A stretch of DNA of 64,000 nt, taken from positions 3,606,001 through 3,670,000 of the forward strand of contig NZ_CP034015.1 of assembly GCF_003855395.1 (NCBI RefSeq), in the 5' to 3' direction. The notes beneath the pieces are model-generated. The model saw nothing but the letters and a program-made list of their open reading frames with translations. It searched no databases and was not told the origin of the DNA. Position 1 is the first letter of the stretch, and the number at the start of each line of letters is the position of its first letter. Below, piece after piece: positions 4,783 through 54,162 of this stretch. This DNA comes from Shewanella livingstonensis (GTDB taxonomy: Bacteria; Pseudomonadota; Gammaproteobacteria; Enterobacterales; Shewanellaceae). The translations under genes were made by a program, and so were the position numbers.

Positions 4783-4870
4783 AATTTAATTATTTCTTCG
4801 TTGGATACGAATAGAGAAAAACTAGAAATAAGACTCACCATACACAGAAAGTATATGGGTTAACTTACCT

Positions 4871-5080
4871 AGTAGCACTCCACAGTAATACCCATTTAAT
4901 ATGAATATCATTCTTTTTATCATGTGATAAAAACACTATGACAGTACAGCCCCTTTCGAGAACTGGCCCAACAAATGAGAGCGATTGGCTCAGTTGTTTC
5001 GGCATTGCACCCTTTGGGGCTGAATTATTGGCATCACCCAATTCAACCTGACTATTATGCAATGCACCTCTACTTTCGTT
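4871..5080 (-). promoter_or_regulatory. Lysine riboswitch (L box) upstream of nhaC-type gene
   Basis: On the minus strand the segment opens with AGTAGAGGTGCATTGC, continues through CAAAGGGTGCAATGCCGAAA and TCTCGAAAGGGGCTG, and closes with GTGGAGTGCTACT, whose CTACT (4871-4875) pairs back to AGTAG (5070-5074) as helix P1. The AGAGG, AGGGTGCAATGCCGA and closing GTGGAG blocks match the L-box consensus as known from E. coli lysC and related leaders. A hairpin (CCATATAC/GTGTATGG) follows between P1 and the start codon, without an obvious U-tract, so transcriptional versus translational control is unresolved. A long minus-strand reading frame across this RNA is accidental. Confidence 0.92.
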
Positions 5081-17131: not shown

Positions 17132-17163
17132 CCCCAATAACAAACCTGCTTAAAGATAGTTTG

Positions 17164-17478
17164 ATGAGAAAAGGCATTTTATTAGCAGGAGGTTCAGGCA
17201 CTCAGCTATACCCTATCACCCAGGTGGTTTGTAAACAGCTATTGCCCATTTACGACAAACCGATGGTTTATTATCCACTAAGCGCTCTAATACAAGTAGG
17301 TATTACTGACATCTTAGTCATTTTTACTCCTACATATCTGCCTCTTTTTAAGTCACTATTGCTGTCACTATTGATGCCACTATTGCACAACGTTCATCAA
17401 TTACAACACGCATTGCAATCATTAAGTAGCACCTCTTGCACAACCCCATTTGGTTACCATGTTGCTAAGTCTCAATGA
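17164..17478 (+). pseudogene. rmlA/rfbA remnant (glucose-1-phosphate thymidylyltransferase, truncated)
   Basis: The first ~60 codons ([55 protein letters not shown]) are plainly the start of RmlA, which makes dTDP-glucose for dTDP-rhamnose. After that the frame runs into a low-complexity stretch with three 12-bp repeats (17353-17388) and stops at ~104 codons against the usual ~290. The key GGSGTRL arginine has become glutamine. The domain that binds sugar and closes the active site is missing, so this cannot be functional. Its TGA overlaps the ATG of the rmlD remnant (ATGA). Confidence 0.85.
17353..17388 (+). repeat. Three 12-bp tandem repeats in the rmlA remnant
   Basis: Three consecutive units of the form (T/C)CACTATTGxxx. 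They lie where RmlA homology stops, which suggests repeat expansion or a deletion scar. Confidence 0.7.
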
Positions 17479-20407: not shown

Positions 20408-20893
20408 ATGACCGCAACAATTTACCCTATTATCGTAAAAGACATTCAAGGCAATGATGTTGTTATGGAGCACTTTAAAGATAAGGTTTTGCTCATTGTT
20501 AACACTGCCAGTAAATGCGGATTTACGCCACAATACAAAGCCCTTGAAGTGTTATATCAGCAATATAAAGATCGCGGTTTAGTTATTTTAGGCTTTCCCT
20601 GTAACCAATTCGGTAAGCAAGAACAAGGCAATGAAGATGACATCAGCCAATTCTGCGAGCTCAACTTTGGCGTAACTTTCCCACTTTTTAGCAAAATTGA
20701 AGTTAATGGCAGTAATAGTCACCCTTTATATCAATTTCTCAAAAAGTCTGCCAAAGGCCTTTTAGGCAGTGAATCGATAAAATGGAACTTCACTAAGTTT
20801 TTAGTCGATAAGCAAGGAAACGTGATTGAACGATATGCACCAACCACCAAACCAGAAGATCTTAACGCTACTATCAAAAAACTGCTTGGTTAA
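20408..20893 (+). CDS. Glutathione peroxidase family protein (cysteine type)
   Basis: Reduces hydrogen peroxide or lipid hydroperoxides, in bacteria often with thioredoxin as reductant. The 161-residue fold shows the active-site block [46 protein letters not shown], with peroxidatic Cys37 in place of selenocysteine. The catalytic tetrad tryptophan/asparagine motif is [27 protein letters not shown]. It resembles E. coli BtuE. AAAGGAG lies 7 nt before the ATG. A terminator follows. Confidence 0.94.
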
Positions 20894-20976: not shown

Positions 20977-21202
20977 TACTTACGGACTAAGGTCACTCGC
21001 TAATCACTATCTCGTCAACATGATATTTTATCTGCTTAACCGTATATTTGAATAATAGACATACCGCAAAAAACATTGAACCTTAAGCTTTTGATAATCA
21101 AACAATAAAAATTTTATTCCATTCTTTTGAAAAAATAGTTCATTTATATTGAACTTTTAAACCATCAGGTACTCAAACTTAGTAACAGTGATATTCACTT
21201 TT

Positions 21203-21285
21203 GTTCTTCATCTCCCAGGGACTTCTAGCGCGGTCCCCTTGATCGCTAAGTCGATCGATAGGCAATCATTTGATTGCCTTTTTTT
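21203..21285 (+). ncRNA. Divergent relative of the tandem RNA element
   Basis: It shares the plan of the array copies. The 5' end is GTTCTTCATCTCCC (compare GTTCATCATCATCCC). A hairpin GGGAC...GTCCC exposes CTAGCGC in its loop, exactly the loop heptamer of the array copies. A linker containing CTAAGTCGATCGAT follows, then a terminator GGCAATCA-TT-TGATTGCC with seven T. An upstream box TGAACTTTTA is also shared. Stem sequences differ while loop and layout are kept, as expected of a conserved RNA. Confidence 0.55.
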
Positions 21286-21491
21286 ATGCCTCTTGATTGC
21301 ACCGCTATTCTAGAGTTTTTTAAATTATCTCGATAAGTACAGTCACTACCTTGTCCTATCCATGGTGCGTAACTTCTACTAGAAATAATAATCGGCTCTT
21401 TTGTTGTACTGACAGATATAGACCCGTTACTAACGCCTATATCAGTTTTGCCAGCACCATAACTTAATGCTACTGGCTTAAAATAATCCAT
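21246..21491 (-). CDS. Hypothetical 81-aa reading frame, possible gene remnant
   Basis: The frame reads MDYFKPVALSYGAGKTDIGV, continues through SISVSTTKEPIIISSRSYAPWIGQGSDCTYRDN and ends KKGNQMIAYRST. Amino-acid composition looks protein-like, but there is no good ribosome-binding site, no recognised family, and the 3' end runs backwards through the terminator of the RNA element at 21203-21285. It may be a fragment of a lost gene or chance. Confidence 0.25.
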   Translation of the reverse strand: MDYFKPVALSYGAGKTDIGVSNGSISVSTTKEPIIISSRSYAPWIGQGSDCTYRDNLKNSRIAVQSRGIKKGNQMIAYRST

Positions 21492-21922
21492 TTCTATCTA
21501 AGTAGCCCATTTATTATCCCAAGTTAAGGTTAAGCTAAACTGAGGCTAAGCCGTTAGTGCATATGATTATTCACCGACTTAAAGTAAGCTAAAATATAAT
21601 AAAAAACGGTTAATATTAAAAAAAATCAGCTAAACGATGCACTGCTATCGCGGTTAACACTTACCATTATTGAACCACTTTCCACCACAGCAACGGAACT
21701 AGCTTTAGTAATCAACTATTTTTAAATTTACTGTCGTATTTAATGAACTTTTACACATAGCCCTAGTCAGAATATAAGTAACAAGTAAGACAGAGTAACT
21801 ATCACAAAGGATAGAGTAACTATGTAAACACACTAAACGTCCTCCTCCAACGTTTCAGTTTGTCTTCAAAGGTTTTATTAGTTACTTTTGAATTTACTTA
21901 TTGCTACAGTTTTATGTGTATT

Positions 21923-22023
21923 GTTCATCATCATCCCTATTAGGGGAGTATTAACACGCTAGCGCACCGTTAATGTCCTCGTAAAGAACGACTTAGGCAA
22001 CCACATTGGTTGCCATTTTTTTT
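21923..22023 (+). ncRNA. Tandem structured RNA element, copy 1
   Basis: A ~100-nt unit: 5' GTTCATCATCATCCC, a long hairpin closed by GGGGAGTATTAAC/GTTAATGTCCTC with CTAGCGC in the loop, a linker GTAAAGAACGACTTA, and an intrinsic terminator GGCAACCA-CAT-TGGTTGCC plus eight T. It shares TTATTGCTACA(CC)GTTTTATG just upstream with the other copies (a possible promoter), but the region further up is diverged. The T-tract shows transcription on the plus strand. Confidence 0.7.
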
Positions 22024-22211
22024 GCTTTTTTATTTTCTTATGACTTACATTGTGACTTGCTGTTGTAATGCATAGATCAACGCCCCTAATTTATGATCAA
22101 TTTTCTATCAACATCTCCCTGCCATAATCGACAGCTTAGTTAATTCAGGTTAAGAAAACGTTTACGAGTAAGGCTGTTTCAACTCAAAAACGTCACTACT
22201 TTTGATGAAAA

Positions 22212-22244
22212 TATCAGCAACTCGCTTAAGAGCGAGTTGCTGAT
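22212..22244. other. Perfect hairpin between copies 1 and 2
   Basis: ATCAGCAACTCGCT and AGCGAGTTGCTGAT are perfect reverse complements around TAAG. There is no T-tract in either direction. The matching place before copy 3 holds a different palindrome (CCAAGAAAATAAATT/ AATTTATTTTCTTGG, 22874-22909). Confidence 0.6.
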
Positions 22245-22276
22245 AAAAAATTATTTCAAAATAATTCATTTTCTGA

Positions 22277-22563
22277 TGAACTTTTATAATAATGCTCGGT
22301 CCTATTAATTGTACGGATAAGATTTAGTTTGAAGGAAGTAAGTGCAGCATGATGAGTTAACCTTCTCCCCCGGCGTTAACTGATGATACTGCCAAGTGAT
22401 TTGCTCTACTTACCTTAAGCTTCAGTCAGGATTAAGTTATTGCTACACCGTTTTATGTTCATTGTTCATCATCATCCCTATTTGGGGAGTATTAACACGC
22501 TAGCGCACCGTTAATGTCCTCGTAAAGAACGACTTAGGCAACCACATTGGTTGCCATTTTTTT
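22277..22563 (+). repeat. Long repeat unit enclosing RNA element copy 2
   Basis: A ~287-bp block starting TGAACTTTTATAATAATGCTC. Its first half contains an imperfect 17-bp inverted repeat (CAGCATGATGAGTTAAC and GTTAACTGATGATACTG, 14 of 17 paired). Its second half is RNA element copy 2. The same block recurs at 22908 and 23543 with about 90% identity by eye. A TATAAT box near the start could be a promoter for a ~265-nt transcript ending at the shared terminator. Confidence 0.7.
22464..22563 (+). ncRNA. Tandem structured RNA element, copy 2
   Basis: Nearly identical to copy 1 from GTTCATCATCATCCC to the terminator (GGCAACCA/TGGTTGCC, seven T). If transcribed separately, TATGTT at 22454-22459 would be a suitable -10, with TTAAGT 16 bp further up as a weak -35. 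Confidence 0.72.
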
Positions 22564-22907
22564 AGATTTTTTTTGGTTTATGCTGTAAAGTGTCTTGATA
22601 ATTAGATTTAAATATTGAGTGGCTAAATGTCTTAATACTTTGAGTACTTTGAATTTAAATAGTGAGTCCCGCAGTTAACTCAAATGATAAACGCATAAAT
22701 TAACTGTTCCAAATTATCAGCAATACCTACCTCAATTGCAAACCACCGCAGAAAAAATACTGTTGATGATAAACTCAAAAAACTCATATAACGTCTAACA
22801 ACAGTACTGTTCTCGCTCAAATGACTTAATGAATTGTCAAAAATTACCAATCGATAGTGTCCTACATTTTCACCAAGAAAATAAATTCAAAATAATTTAT
22901 TTTCTTG

Positions 22908-23190
22908 GTGAACTTTCCTAATAATGCTCGGTCTTATTAATTGTACGGATAAGATGTAGTTTGAAGTCAGTACAGCATGATGAGTTAACCTTCTCCCTCG
23001 ATGTTAACTGATGATACTGCCAAGTGATTTACTCACTTACCTCAAGCTTCAGTCAGGATTAAGTTATTGCTACACCGTTTTATATTTATTGTTCATCATC
23101 ATCCCTATTTGGGAGTATTAACACGCTAGCGCACCGTTAATGCCTCTCGTAAAGAACGACTTAGGCAACCACATTGGTTGCCATTTTTTT
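22908..23190 (+). repeat. Long repeat unit enclosing RNA element copy 3
   Basis: Second full copy of the long block, 632 bp downstream of the first (measured at AATGCTCGGT). The upstream TATAAT is altered here to CCTAAT, and the whole box is preceded by a large AT-rich palindrome (22874-22909). Confidence 0.7.
23091..23190 (+). ncRNA. Tandem structured RNA element, copy 3
   Basis: Same layout. The central stem differs: GGGAG now pairs with CTCTC instead of GGGGA with TCCTC, so pairing is kept although both arms changed. The CTAGCGC loop, GTAAAGAACGACTTA linker and terminator are unchanged. Confidence 0.72.
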
Positions 23191-23542
23191 GGATTTTTTA
23201 TGGCTTATGTTGCGATATGGGTTATGACTTGCCATTGTATTACATCAATCAACACCCAAAATTTACTAGCTCTTTTTTAGCAATTTCTAACGTGGCCGCA
23301 ATCATAATCAGCGGTTTGAATGATTCACGTTGAGAAAAAGGTTAGCGAGTAAGGCTAAGCTGTTAATTAAAAACTTAATTTCTCACATTTAACAGTCCAT
23401 ATTCAATCATCCTCTAATTAGAATGACAGTTAATCGCAAGGTTGTTTCAACTTAAAAACGTCACTACTTTTGATGAAATATCCGCTACTCGCTAAAAATA
23501 ATTGCCTCATAAATAAATTATTTCAAAATAAATTATTTTTTG

Positions 23543-23825
23543 GTGAACTTTTATAATAATGCTCGGTCCTATTAATTGTACGGATAGGATGTAGTTTGAA
23601 GTCAGTGCAGCTTGATGAGTTAACCTTCTCCCCCGATGTTAACTGATGATACTGCCAAGTGATTTACTCTACTTACCTCATGCTTCAGTCAAGATTAAGT
23701 TATTGCTACACCGTTTTATGTTCATTGTTCATCATCATCCCTATTGGGGGAAATTAACACGCTAGCGCACCGTTAATTTCCCCGTAAAGAACGACTTAGG
23801 CAGCCAATGTGGCTGCCATTTTTTT
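23543..23825 (+). repeat. Long repeat unit enclosing RNA element copy 4
   Basis: Third full copy of the long block, 636 bp downstream of the second. It has an intact TATAAT and ends 43 bp before the stop codon of the converging M1 aminopeptidase gene. Confidence 0.7.
23727..23825 (+). ncRNA. Tandem structured RNA element, copy 4
   Basis: The most informative copy. The central stem is GGGGAAATTAAC/GTTAATTTCCCC (perfect), where the others have GGGGAGTATTAAC/GTTAATGTCCTC. The terminator is GGCAGCCA/TGGCTGCC instead of GGCAACCA/TGGTTGCC. Both are compensatory changes. Loop and linker are unchanged. Confidence 0.75.
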
Positions 23826-23867
23826 ATTATTTTTTTGATATTGAATACCCAATAAAATGCAGCTAAT

Positions 23868-25652
23868 TTACGAAAGGTTAAATAAGTTATCCAGCTGTAC
23901 TTGCAAAGAAGGATGATAACCGGGACGAGCTTTTGCATAAATAGCAACTAGCTCTTGTTGATAACCGGCTATTTGTAATTCAACAAACAATGGCCTAACA
24001 AATTTCCCCCGGCCTATGCGGCATAAATAGGCACTTAGCGCAGGTAATACGGGATCAAAATGATTACGGATAGCAACTCGGTACCAATCACAGGCTATTT
24101 CGGCATTCAAACTATCAGTTAATCTAAAGGTATTATCTAAGTCTAATAATGTGGCTTGGCTGACGACTAATGGTAATTGGGTTAAAAAATATTGCCAATG
24201 GTGAACTCGCCATTGGCTCACCACTAAATCACTTGCCGAAGCACCTTTGACGATAGCTTCCACAGCTAAATCAACTTTATCCAAGCTGCTTGATATCGGG
24301 CCCTTAAACCATAGCGGTAAGCCCTGGCCATATACCCACTCATTAAGTTCAGATAATGTTAGTTTATCGTGATGTTCCACCAGCAATGTTTGTTTCGCGT
24401 AATCAATAAATATTTCGGTAGTAATGGCGCTAAACGCAAAATAGTCAACATACTGAAATAGAAACCGATCGAATGCAGGTCGACCTAATCGGCTCTCAAG
24501 TTCATGCACAAACATTGATGCTTTATCGTAGGTAAATCGATTAAAGGCTAGATTAGGATCACTATCTTGCACGTTGGCAGGTAAGGTTTGGCTCGTTAAA
24601 GGGGTCGACTTGATTTCCTCTTGTAAACGGCCATATTCAATAACCCATTCAAGCTCTGCCTGCTCTTTACCATAAACGGCTTCAACAATACGATTAGTAA
24701 AATAAGTAGTAAATCCTTCATTGAGCCATAAGTCTCGCCAAGTGGCGTTGCTAACTAAATTACCGGTCCATGAATGGGCTAACTCATGAGCAACAGTAGA
24801 AACAAGGCTTTTATCACCGGCGATTAACGTCGGAGTCATAAACGCTAACATAGGATTTTCCATACCACCAAAAGGAAAACTCGGTGGCAATACAATCATA
24901 TCAAATCGACCCCAAGCATAAGGTCCTAGTATAGACTCAGCTATTTGGATCATCGACTCAGTGTCTTCAAATTCTTTAACCGCCGCAGCAAGCATGCCGG
25001 GTTCAGTGTAGATGCCACTTCGAGGTCCAGTTGCTTGAAAACTTAACTCTCCAACCGCTATCGCTAATAAATGTGTTGGAATAGGTTTGTTCATACAGAA
25101 TGTAAACACGCCATCATCGGGCATATCAGGGATGTTTTCGGCACTCATTACCGCACGCAACCCTTGTGGCACTGTGATTGTCGCGTTAAAGGTTATTCGT
25201 GCTTTAGGGCTATCTTGTAGGGGTATCCAGCTACGAGCGTTGATAGGTTGCGATTGGCTAAATAGATAAGGTAATTTTTTACCTAAGGTTTGCTCTGGCG
25301 TAAGCCATTGAAGCCCTTGAGCGGCTGTTGATGTGCGATAATGAATCACTATCTCATTGATTTCTTCGCCAACATTAATAACCAACTTTTGGCCTAAAAT
25401 CGCATTCACATCACTCATTTTATACAACAACTGATTAGCGTGATTGTCAGTGATGACTTCTATGTTCAGATCGCGGCAATCCAACACTAATTCGTGCGTT
25501 GATACTGTTCGAGTAAATTGTAATCGTGCAACACCGATGAGTTGTTGTAAGTTAAAATCAACCACAAGATTGAGCTCAAGATGATGTACGCATAAAGCAT
25601 CCGTGTTGGCACTTGAATGGTAATCGTGTTGTACGTTCCATTTTGCAGTCAC
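23868..25652 (-). CDS. M1 family aminopeptidase (leukotriene A4 hydrolase / ColAP-like)
   Basis: A zinc aminopeptidase of 594 residues. The exopeptidase motif GGMEN (FPFGGMENPMLAFM) precedes the gluzincin site HELAHSWTGNLVSNATWRDLWLNEGF: zinc ligands His289, His293 and Glu312, catalytic Glu290. The C-terminal Leuk-A4-hydro_C helical domain (about residues 440-594) places it with LTA4H-like bacterial enzymes such as the Colwellia aminopeptidase. No signal peptide, so presumably cytosolic. The start is GTG at 25652 with AAGGA upstream. It is convergent with RNA element copy 4. Confidence 0.93.
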   Translation of the reverse strand: MTAKWNVQHDYHSSANTDALCVHHLELNLVVDFNLQQLIGVARLQFTRTVSTHELVLDCRDLNIEVITDNHANQLLYKMSDVNAILGQKLVINVGEEINEIVIHYRTSTAAQGLQWLTPEQTLGKKLPYLFSQSQPINARSWIPLQDSPKARITFNATITVPQGLRAVMSAENIPDMPDDGVFTFCMNKPIPTHLLAIAVGELSFQATGPRSGIYTEPGMLAAAVKEFEDTESMIQIAESILGPYAWGRFDMIVLPPSFPFGGMENPMLAFMTPTLIAGDKSLVSTVAHELAHSWTGNLVSNATWRDLWLNEGFTTYFTNRIVEAVYGKEQAELEWVIEYGRLQEEIKSTPLTSQTLPANVQDSDPNLAFNRFTYDKASMFVHELESRLGRPAFDRFLFQYVDYFAFSAITTEIFIDYAKQTLLVEHHDKLTLSELNEWVYGQGLPLWFKGPISSSLDKVDLAVEAIVKGASASDLVVSQWRVHHWQYFLTQLPLVVSQATLLDLDNTFRLTDSLNAEIACDWYRVAIRNHFDPVLPALSAYLCRIGRGKFVRPLFVELQIAGYQQELVAIYAKARPGYHPSLQVQLDNLFNLS

Positions 25653-26090
25653 AAAAAATCCTTACCTAGCAGAGAAAACATTAAATCTAGCAAAGATAAT
25701 AGCATCCACAAACATGTGCTACAAAGTACACCAACGACTATCTCGTCATTTCAAAACTAATCTCATTTTTCAATTTTAGTCACATAGGGCGACTAACTTA
25801 AATCTTGCTTCAGATCACTTCAGCTCTTCATTTCCTGCTGTTACGACCTAATGTTGATGACTTCTTAAAGCGAGCACGACCTTTTTAACTAGCCTCTGGC
25901 ATTACCCCATATCAAATTGATAATTAGACAGTTATTCGTCGCTATTTATTATTAAATTTTCTAGTCGATTTTATTTTTATATAAAAAAGTATTTTTTTAG
26001 CTTTACAGGGAACTAACTCAAAAGCGACGAGTCTTATTATATGAACCGAATTTGCATTACTTAATTATTTTTACCGAGTTGCTAGTTTTT

Positions 26091-26186
26091 GTTCATCATC
26101 ATTCTCCTATTCGATAGTTATAAAAATCTATCAACAGTATTGCCCTTAGCAATAGCAGCAACCTCTTAGTTAGGTTGCTTTTTTTT
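26091..26186 (+). ncRNA. Outlying relative of the tandem RNA element, next to pstS
   Basis: It begins GTTCATCATCAT, the same 12 bases as the array copies. A hairpin GATAG.../CTATC, a second small hairpin (TATTGC/GCAATA) and a terminator GCAACCT/AGGTTGC with eight T follow. The CTAGCGC loop is not present, so it is a more distant relative. It runs towards the 3' end of pstS. Confidence 0.5.
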
Positions 26187-30284: not shown

Positions 30285-31229
30285 TTAGAACTTATGTTCG
30301 ATACCAATACCAACATAGCTATCATCTTGGTCATTTGAATCAAACGAGTTGGCCGTGTAAAAAGCAAATAGTTTAGTGGGTTTACCTAGTTTATAGTCAG
30401 CACCTACAGACCATGAATCGCCTTTGTTTTCCATGTCGACATACTGAGCTTTTAGCGTTACATCATTGATGTCGTAAGCGGTACTGAATAAGAAACCGTT
30501 ATCTGTTACACCGCTATCTAGCGCTTCTTGTTGCTGGTACATACCACCAATCACTAAGCCAGCAACTTTACCTTGAACCGTTGCTCGTGCAGTGTCATAA
30601 CCTTTTACTTTTGAATCATAAGCAATCGCTGCATATATTGGTGTACTTTTAAGACCTGCATCACCGTACATTACAGCCATGCTCACACCATCTTCACCAC
30701 TAGAATTGTCACCAACAACTTGGTCTGAATCGCCTGATGCAACATAAGTGACACCCGCTTGAAAATCACCAAACATAGGTGTGTAGTATGTCGCAGTTTG
30801 CGCCATACGGTTTTCACCTTTGAACATGTTTTTTACGTCACCAGATAAATCGTTAAACTGATCAACTTTGCCTTGAGATACTTTAAGGATAGTGTCGTTA
30901 CGACCGACAGAAACGGCACCGAAGTTACCTTTTAAACCAACAAATTGGTTACGAGCTAAAAAGTTTTCTTTGTCATCATCACCAGTATTAACTTCGTATT
31001 CGATGGTGTAGAAAGCTTCTAATGATTTGCTTAACTCAAACTCACCGGTTACACCAAAACGTGATGCATTACTTTGAATGGTTGTTTCAGTTTCATCATT
31101 AACATCATTAGACTGTGCTGTAACATTTAATTTTCCATAAACTTGTAGAGGATCTGCCGCATAAGCACTTGATACTAAAGAGGCTGCCATTGCAGAGGCT
31201 AGTAGAGTTTTACAAAAAACATTCATCAT
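30285..31229 (-). CDS. Outer-membrane general porin
   Basis: A 314-residue Gram-negative porin. The signal peptide CKTLLASAMAASLVSSAYAA is followed by DPLQVYGKLNVTAQSND, the standard first strand. Alternating beta-strand pattern, FVGLKGNFGAVSVGRND and the C-terminal YVGIGIEHKF (aromatic last residue for Bam-dependent insertion) complete it. Two adjacent ATGs (31229, 31226) share AGGA, and the second is slightly better spaced. Its place beside phoBR and pstS suggests a phosphate-induced porin of PhoE type, but no clear Pho box was found. TGTCCAATAAT, also seen upstream of phoB, occurs at about 31375. Confidence 0.88.
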   Translation of the reverse strand: MMNVFCKTLLASAMAASLVSSAYAADPLQVYGKLNVTAQSNDVNDETETTIQSNASRFGVTGEFELSKSLEAFYTIEYEVNTGDDDKENFLARNQFVGLKGNFGAVSVGRNDTILKVSQGKVDQFNDLSGDVKNMFKGENRMAQTATYYTPMFGDFQAGVTYVASGDSDQVVGDNSSGEDGVSMAVMYGDAGLKSTPIYAAIAYDSKVKGYDTARATVQGKVAGLVIGGMYQQQEALDSGVTDNGFLFSTAYDINDVTLKAQYVDMENKGDSWSVGADYKLGKPTKLFAFYTANSFDSNDQDDSYVGIGIEHKF

Positions 31230-53044: not shown

Positions 53045-53812
53045 TTACTCTCCGTCCGTTGTATCAATTTTTCGCAGACTTTCAGCCAAATAATTCTTCA
53101 AAAAGCCTTCAATAACTCGCGGGTTCTGCCCATCTTGGATGGCTAAAACCGCATCCATAATTAAATTACGATTCAGTAACTCTTCATTCATTCGTAATGA
53201 TAGTTTATCCGCCATCGGGATGGCGATCATGTTGGCAATCACCGCGCCATAGAGAGTCGTTAACAATGCCACTGCCATTGAGGGACCAATGGATTTGGGA
53301 TCATCCATGTTAGATAGCATCGCCACTAAACCAACCAAAGTACCAATCATGCCCATTGCAGGGGCCACATCACCCATGGCTTTAAAAATACCTACCCCTG
53401 TTTTGTGACGTTCTTCAGTTAATGCAATGTCTTTTTCTAATGCGTTACGCACGACATCACCATCATGACCATCAACCAACATATCAACCGCTTTTTGCAT
53501 AAAGGTGTTGGTAATAACCGCTTCTTCCAAGGCTAAGAAACCGCCTTTACGGGCAGCATCAGCCATGGTGACAGCTTGTTCGATTAAATCTTCAGGTTTA
53601 TCTAATTTAAACATGAAGGCTTTCATACCAATCTTTATCGAACCTAAAAATTGTTTTAGGTTAAACTTCATCATCACCACAAATAAAGAACCGGCTACAA
53701 CAATCAAAATTGACGGTACATCGATGAATAATCCGATGCCACCACTGGTCACCATCGCACCAATAATAAATGCAAAAGCACCGATAATACCTATCAGGGT
53801 AGCTAAATCCAC
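53045..53812 (-). CDS. pomA: Flagellar stator subunit PomA/MotA
   Basis: A 255-residue four-helix stator protein, with MDLATLIGIIGAFAFIIGAMVTSGGIGLFIDVPSILIVVAGSLFVV at the N-terminus and the conserved stretch FKAMGDVAPAMGMIGTLVGLVAMLSNMDDPKSIGPSMAVALLTTLYGAVIAN. These are Vibrio PomA-type features, so sodium coupling is likely. The start is GTG with AGAGGTT directly upstream. First gene of the pomAB operon. Confidence 0.94.
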   Translation of the reverse strand: MDLATLIGIIGAFAFIIGAMVTSGGIGLFIDVPSILIVVAGSLFVVMMKFNLKQFLGSIKIGMKAFMFKLDKPEDLIEQAVTMADAARKGGFLALEEAVITNTFMQKAVDMLVDGHDGDVVRNALEKDIALTEERHKTGVGIFKAMGDVAPAMGMIGTLVGLVAMLSNMDDPKSIGPSMAVALLTTLYGAVIANMIAIPMADKLSLRMNEELLNRNLIMDAVLAIQDGQNPRVIEGFLKNYLAESLRKIDTTDGE

Positions 53813-54162
53813 AACCTCTCCTCAATCGCAGTCATTGCGCTGCCTATTTATGCTGCTTTATCGTGCTATTAGCGCACGTTCTTTAATCCGAACAACTCAA
53901 CTACATGTTGTGTAAACTATATTGCCCATGGTTTTATATTACAGCAACCATTTCAATACTATGTTTCAATACTATTTTACGCTATCAATGCTAAATCATG
54001 ACTTATTATCGGACAAACTCGGCTCAAGTTTAGCGTTTTTTACACATTCTAAACAAAATTCAATAACAAAGCGTGTTGTTGAGCAAATAACCAGCGACTG
54101 TATTTGACCGATACGCTGGGCTGATATACCTTGTCACACGCTGAATGAAAGGAATATTAATC
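53813..54162. other. Divergent intergenic region (pomA / xseB)
   Basis: This ~350-bp AT-rich region has no recognisable site. A short plus-strand frame (53922-54107) has no ribosome-binding site and no protein-like features. Confidence 0.4.

Follow-up and report, generated by a model that had tools for sequence, protein, structure and literature searches.

In the window (the whole 64,000-nt stretch of Shewanella livingstonensis DNA analysed here), four elements that we call type B lie on the + strand between a glutathione peroxidase gene (gpx, 20408..20893, + strand, assigned by Pfam GSHPx and synteny) and an M1-family aminopeptidase gene (23869..25652, - strand, assigned by Pfam Peptidase_M1 and synteny). 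Each begins with GTTCATCATCATCCC, at 21923, 22464, 23091 and 23727, and continues into CTAGCGC and an intrinsic terminator, just as a first-pass annotation of this DNA had described. A repeat search of the window returned them as a 126-nt direct-repeat family of four copies with spacings of 541, 627 and 635, and this search and covariance model R2 place them at 21923..22023 (copy 1), 22464..22563 (copy 2), 23091..23190 (copy 3) and 23727..23825 (copy 4), all on the + strand. The first-pass annotation had counted a four-copy array; the four copies stand, while the family itself is larger, since types A and C add two members.

The type A element (21203..21286, + strand), a shorter and divergent relative of type B located directly 3' of gpx, consists of the seed GTTCTTCATCTCCC, a hairpin with a CTAGCGC loop, a second hairpin and a terminator, as read from alignment A1 and its covariation. 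Covariance model R1 matches it at 21196-21285 (E 6e-22), and we infer a transcript start near 21184. The type C element (26091..26186, + strand), between the M1 peptidase gene and pstS, has the same seed arm and a terminator, with a loop that in this genome is not CTAGCGC. The 5' arm is common to types A, B and C in the alignments. Within the window's own genome R1 gave 5 matches and R2 gave 4, so that, as in sibling sRNAs, at least two related sRNA genes are present in one genome.

The type B copies of the window fold better than their dinucleotide shuffles (z -2.8 to -4.8), with 3, 0, 0 and 0 of 200 shuffles folding at least as well as copies 1-4. Changes on both sides of predicted pairs also exceeded shuffled alignments, with the caveat that kinship alone can lift related sequences above shuffles without any structure: type A has such changes in 7 of 17 pairs, amounting to 40 cells against 12.8 in shuffles (reached in 0 of 500), and type B has 56 cells against 21.1 (0 of 500), spread over 7 of 17 pairs. 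Other measures were reached more often, with the number of further pair types attained by 86 of 500 shuffles for type A and by 122 of 500 for type B, and the 7-pair count of type B by 43 of 500. The type B alignment (A2) contains 58 of 110 distinct sequences; those omitted are mainly long forms that resist alignment, and the pair counts accordingly describe the shorter forms. The type C alignment (A3) comprises 8 sequences found by CTAGCGC plus the window's own type C, which lacks it.

These alignments bear on the earlier proposal that differences between copies are compensatory. At the terminator this was borne out, with the varying type B pair being A-U in 44 sequences, G-C in 12 and G-U in 2 (n = 58). 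In the central stem it was borne out mostly for the inner pairs, which are largely kept and show both-sided changes across the 58 sequences, and failed for the two outermost pairs tested, which do not form in 48 of 58 and 29 of 58 sequences. The linker, described as invariant and single-stranded, is invariant among the four window copies and varies across the genus (alignment A2), and folding predictions for the window copies pair its GAAC with the 5' GUUC.

A covariance-model search of other Shewanella genomes, which the first-pass annotation had suggested as a check, found the family conserved: R1 (type A) matched in 129 of 129 genus genomes, with a weakest best match of 52.8 bits (G099), and R2 (type B) in 113 of 129. 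Since R1 and R2 each also match, with lower scores, elements of the other types, an R1 or R2 match does not establish that a genome carries the corresponding type; the 16 genus genomes with no R2 match may reflect loss or divergence. By blastn, copy 1 found matches in 40 of the 129 genomes. In a draw of 295 genomes from the order, 21 genus members matched R1, while the other 274 genomes gave six matches at E 0.005-0.009, which we take to be chance, and R1 had no match in the single genome from another genus of the family among those listed. Further R1 matches of about 28-30 bits (G026 C1:972003, G035 C1:2917457 and G042 C7:251) may be more siblings or chance.

The location is conserved as well. 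Of 37 fetched relatives' loci, drawn from the blastn-positive genomes (40 of 129, the window's own included), 33 have the elements between gpx and the peptidase gene. Among the exceptions, L036 lacks the peptidase gene, L067 and L055 lack gpx and L065 lacks both, and we take L055 and L065 to be contig ends. Type B copy number ranged from 0 to 6 per locus (median 3), and these counts are lower bounds, as the element scan demanded an exact CTAGCGC and a T-run, and matches with no TTCATC motif were dropped. Identical type B copies occur inside one genome at L053, L035, L047, L049 and L050, such as the six copies of L053 at an exact 386-base spacing, and for 68 of 120 type B elements the closest relative lies in the same locus (by shared 6-mers, ties counted). 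Such identity and same-locus kinship point to concerted evolution or recent duplication of type B. Genus-wide conservation, both-sided stem changes and the absence of an Rfam match at the gathering threshold together uphold the earlier description of a multi-copy, terminator-ended sRNA family. That description had overlooked the sigma-E type promoters, types A and C, the long type B leaders and the logic of targeting.

A pattern search placed sigma-E type promoters (GAACTT-N16-TC, + strand) upstream of type A (21151..21174) and of type B copies 1 to 4 (21745..21768, 22278..22301, 22910..22933 and 23545..23568), and a weaker one (GAACTA-N16-TC, 26010..26033, + strand) was read by eye before type C. 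The 64-kb window contains 7 GAACTT-N16-TC sites where 1.89 are expected, a number reached in 0 of 100 shuffles, and five of these 7 precede the type A and four type B elements. Across the whole genome the longer form GAACTT-N16-TCNNA has 42 sites, 5 of them in the array, compared with 77 for the reversed control; taken by itself, the motif therefore shows no genome-wide excess. What is notable is that five sites fall within 2.4 kb, one before each of five sRNA elements. The motif is the one described for RpoE in S. oneidensis (GAACTT-N16/17-TC), where the rpoE start site was mapped at the same motif (PMC4336711), and the rpoE of the window's own genome (TIGR02939, 328 bits) has GAACTT-N16-TC upstream. 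Eight of the 42 genomic sites are one identical dispersed sequence, perhaps part of a mobile element with a sigma-E-like motif.

When the window was pooled with the 37 relatives' loci, type A promoters matched strictly in 28 of 36 cases and with at most one mismatch in 36 of 36 (reversed control 0 and 2), type B promoters in 51 and 122 of 122 (control 1 and 33), and type C promoters in 0 and 6 of 9 (control 0 and 1); the 71 of 122 type B promoters that require a mismatch thus lie at a level where the control also yields 33. Each sRNA gene of the array is apparently switched on by RpoE, in that each copy carries, by motif, the promoter type expected of sigma-E sRNAs that repress outer-membrane proteins (OMPs). 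The promoter starts 52-66 nt before the seed in type A (copies measured to the seed by scan) and mostly 140-190 nt before it in type B (range about 100 to 213), a distance that implies a long leader or processing for type B. In most of 16 aligned type B leaders, GTTAAC-like repeats bracket CTTCTCCCCC or a very similar sequence (e.g., window 22356-22380), a possible second C-rich pairing arm which is absent from window copy 1.

The loop and the linker had been put forward as candidates for target pairing, and neither fared well. The linker was set aside because it is not conserved in the genus, and the loop because its complement GCGCTAG has no conserved place near tsx, ompA or porin starts, occurring near 1 of 48 starts for tsx, 1 over 15 for ompA and 6 over 14 for porins, scattered. 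On these grounds the seed is likely to be the unpaired 5' arm, GUUCAUCAUC(AU)CCC, rather than the loop or linker.

The best-supported candidate target is tsx (Pfam Channel_Tsx, 282 bits), an outer-membrane channel gene whose closest named relatives are in Shewanella (85-89% protein identity). It is one of two joint top matches (10 nt) for type B and came out of 199 background ORFs selected irrespective of function; the other 10-nt match lies in a background ORF at window 53047-53821, at codon 49, perhaps not a start. We assembled 69 tsx loci from named genomes, 50 of them from Shewanella or Parashewanella, of which 48 include the start (L305 and L308 do not). The start block ATGGGGTTGAT(G/A)ATGAAA is present in 48 of these 48, as ATGGGGTTGATGATGAAA in 45 and ATGGGGTTGATAATGAAA in 3, and in 0 of 19 tsx loci from Vibrio, Salinivibrio, Moritella, Photobacterium, Aeromonas and Endozoicomonas. 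Its codons GGG and TTG do not vary among the 48 genes, synonymous sites included, against a median protein identity of 0.72 and an invariant codon in 0 of 35 other invariant amino-acid columns of at least fourfold degeneracy, where the commonest codon's share averages 0.685 and reaches 0.96 at most. Part of this conservation, that of GGGG and ATG, may reflect their roles as ribosome site and start codon.

Between AUGGGGUUGAUGAUGAA of tsx and UUCAUCAUCAUCCCUAU of type B, 16 of 17 positions can pair (one as G-U), at a predicted -22.9 kcal/mol; the relatives' type A reaches -15.9, type C -18.7 and the window's own type A a poor -11.9 kcal/mol. The distance from GGGG to the second ATG of ATGATG is that of a ribosome site, so the seed would cover the ribosome site of tsx together with its start codon. 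The nucleoside transporter gene upstream of tsx (L166:1851-3113) has the best type B duplex energy, -23.9 kcal/mol, of the 200 background ORFs.

Complementarity to other OMP starts was more variable. Start regions of genes for OmpA, porins, OmpW and TonB receptors were set against 200 ORFs drawn from the window and from stretches at even intervals. The four OMP searches spanned between 1 and 15 genomes each (15, 7, 8 and 1, not in the order of the genes just named), and the comparison draws on the matches for which DNA was available. In each of 15 genomes one ompA gene (PF01389) starts ATGATGAA, these genes having been selected by that start and in three genomes (G063, G088 and G102) not being the best-scoring PF01389 gene; other PF01389 genes do not have it. 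The longest perfect match between ompA and its own genome's sRNAs is 8 nt in 11 genomes, 11 nt in the window's genome and 12 nt in three. The 11-nt match in the window's genome is to type A, for which no background start of 199 exceeds 9 nt; for type C one background ORF reaches 11 nt. In match length to the seeds, background ORFs can thus equal tsx (type B) or exceed it (type C). A further candidate target is the porin gene next to phoB (30288..31229, - strand, Pfam Porin_4), whose start ATGATGAA matches the seed complement and recurs in 7 of 7 genes when six orthologues are read alongside it.

The OMPs of one genome showed no significant enrichment of in-frame ATGATGAA (2 of 35 vs. 4 of 200, p = 0.22); two of the four background ORFs concerned are tsx and the porin itself, and regrouping them would be post hoc. 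Duplex energy proved a weak target finder in one genome: for each seed, the nine best OMPs out of 35 ranked no higher than the 2-15% level among background starts, and some other starts had better energies. The exact sequence ATGATGAAC has 107 sites in the window's own genome, and one of the first 30 passed a start test demanding at least 50 open codons downstream and fewer than 60 upstream. Seed complementarity to OMP starts, as expected of sigma-E sRNAs that repress OMPs, is found with uneven strength: strong for tsx, moderate for ompA and weak in the one-genome energies and enrichment.

We consider it probable, at roughly three chances in four, that the array is a sigma-E-driven, multi-copy sRNA family which represses OMP translation, with its transcription, RpoE dependence, Hfq involvement and repression all predicted from sequence. 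The elements, their terminators, the promoter motifs, the conservation across the genus and the matching conserved tsx start are read directly from the DNA, and we take the family to be real and very probably driven by RpoE. The array would encode RpoE-dependent sRNAs, with a single type A gene followed by the four of type B and, further on, one of type C, and RpoE would transcribe them all whenever folding in the outer membrane is disturbed. The unpaired 5' arm that they have in common, UUCAUCAUC(AU)CCC, would then pair with the translation start of OMP mRNAs, UUCAUCAU with AUGAUGAA at the start codon and CCC with the GGGG ribosome-binding stretch, blocking translation, probably with Hfq. The array would thereby probably shut off OMP production, such as that of the nucleoside channel Tsx, and the likeliest targets would be tsx, ompA and the phoB-adjacent porin. 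A more elaborate form of this proposal, which we put forward tentatively as a possibility well short of even odds, is a tunable-gain sigma-E system in which type A is the genus-wide founder and the type B array, recombining and evolving concertedly, sets OMP shut-off by its copy number. Type B would here have two arms directed against ribosome sites, one being the C-rich CUUCUCCCCC motif of its long leader and the other the UUCAUCAUC-CCC seed. Targets would be shared out among the paralogues through altered seeds in individual copies; the window's type A, which matches its own ompA over 11 nt, would be an example.

The elements might instead be genuine sigma-E sRNAs whose main job is not repression of OMP mRNAs; the CUAGCGC loop would then act on other targets or bind a protein, and translation of tsx itself would account for the conservation of its start. 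At least 4 pairs enclose the loop in 146 of 149 distinct elements (105 of 149 in a flank-shuffled control), and at least 6 pairs do so in 144 (control 78), and a role elsewhere would fit the lack of a conserved loop complement at tsx, ompA and porin starts. We nevertheless regard this as unlikely, since the constancy of CTAGCGC arises partly by construction (the element scan selected for it) and the window's type C does without it, while it is the 5' arm that is common to the three types and matches a tsx block which the tsx genes of other genera lack. That the copies are terminator-bearing selfish or structural repeats with no regulatory function would accord with their tandem arrangement and with identical copies within some genomes. 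It is made very improbable by the recurrence of the elements at one locus in 33 of 37 fetched relatives, by the promoter motif that accompanies every copy, by compensatory changes and by conservation of the unpaired arm.

The relation to known sRNAs is closest for MicA. The first-pass annotation had stated that the sequence matches no family known to it, and this holds in that Rfam gave no match at the gathering threshold in the array, with MicA scoring below it: under relaxed limits the MicA model (RF00078) reached 24.8, 23.0 and 20.3 bits at three of the four copies, where the gathering cut-off is 41 (E 0.7-5.9 when 2.9 kb were searched), and its alignment covered the AUCAUCAUCC arm and the terminator. 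MicA lies between luxS and gshA, is sigma-E controlled and has OmpA and Tsx among its targets in enterics (PMC4618604), and the array shares with it a sigma-E type promoter (by motif), the AUCAUCAUCC arm and an intrinsic terminator. It differs from MicA in lying between gpx and the M1 peptidase gene, in its several copies, in a distinct central hairpin with a CUAGCGC loop and in type B promoters mostly 140-190 nt before the seed. One might thus regard the family as a distant true homologue of enterobacterial MicA, relocated and multiplied, and the MicA-model scores, MicA's own sigma-E control and its OmpA and Tsx targets would favor this; given scores far under the cut-off, different neighbours, and nothing better than E 0.0048 for R1 in the 274 genomes of the order outside the genus, we judge such descent improbable. 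The reading we prefer, of sigma-E-driven repressors of OMP translation, makes the family look like a Shewanella counterpart of E. coli MicA, similar in action and falling outside that family by score (best 24.8 vs. 41 bits) and by locus.

RybB and MicV carry out envelope-stress repression of outer-membrane proteins, and sRNAs acting in the sigma-E response are known best from enterobacteria and vibrios. VrrA, likewise sigma-E dependent, represses ompA (PMC2628432). The array would share this role with RybB, VrrA and MicV, and differs from them in being multi-copy and having no Rfam match at the gathering threshold. Sibling sRNAs such as Qrr, OmrA/OmrB, AbcR and the csRNAs also occur as related copies in one genome, in tandem in some cases (PMC4211561); the array differs in having one promoter motif per copy, with up to six type B copies plus type A and, in some, type C. 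No Rfam quorum-regulatory sRNA matched at the gathering threshold, nor up to E 10 over 21000-23900.

Shewanella is a model genus for metal respiration, with electron-transfer machinery in the outer membrane. If our reading is right, the array supplies this genus with the sRNA branch of its sigma-E envelope-stress response, its natural copy-number series (up to six type B copies) lends itself to asking why bacteria multiply sRNA genes, and the conserved tsx site offers a directly testable target. Among the literature matches listed, in a search that covered mainly papers free of subscription, no paper dealt with a sigma-E sRNA or a tandem sRNA array in Shewanella. The main text of the S. oneidensis RpoE study does not contain 'sRNA' or 'small RNA' (PMC4336711), and the text of the sibling-sRNA review has 0 occurrences each of RpoE, 'sigma E' and Shewanella (PMC4211561). 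An in-silico screen in S. piezotolerans lists 193 trans candidates (PMC5471319), among which single members of the array family may already figure, unnamed.

Elsewhere in the window, we observed a lysine riboswitch (Rfam RF00168, 103 bits) at 4865-5080 on the - strand, as well as a short ORF at 17161-17478 on the + strand whose start resembles glucose-1-phosphate thymidylyltransferase by eye before diverging, and which looks degraded.
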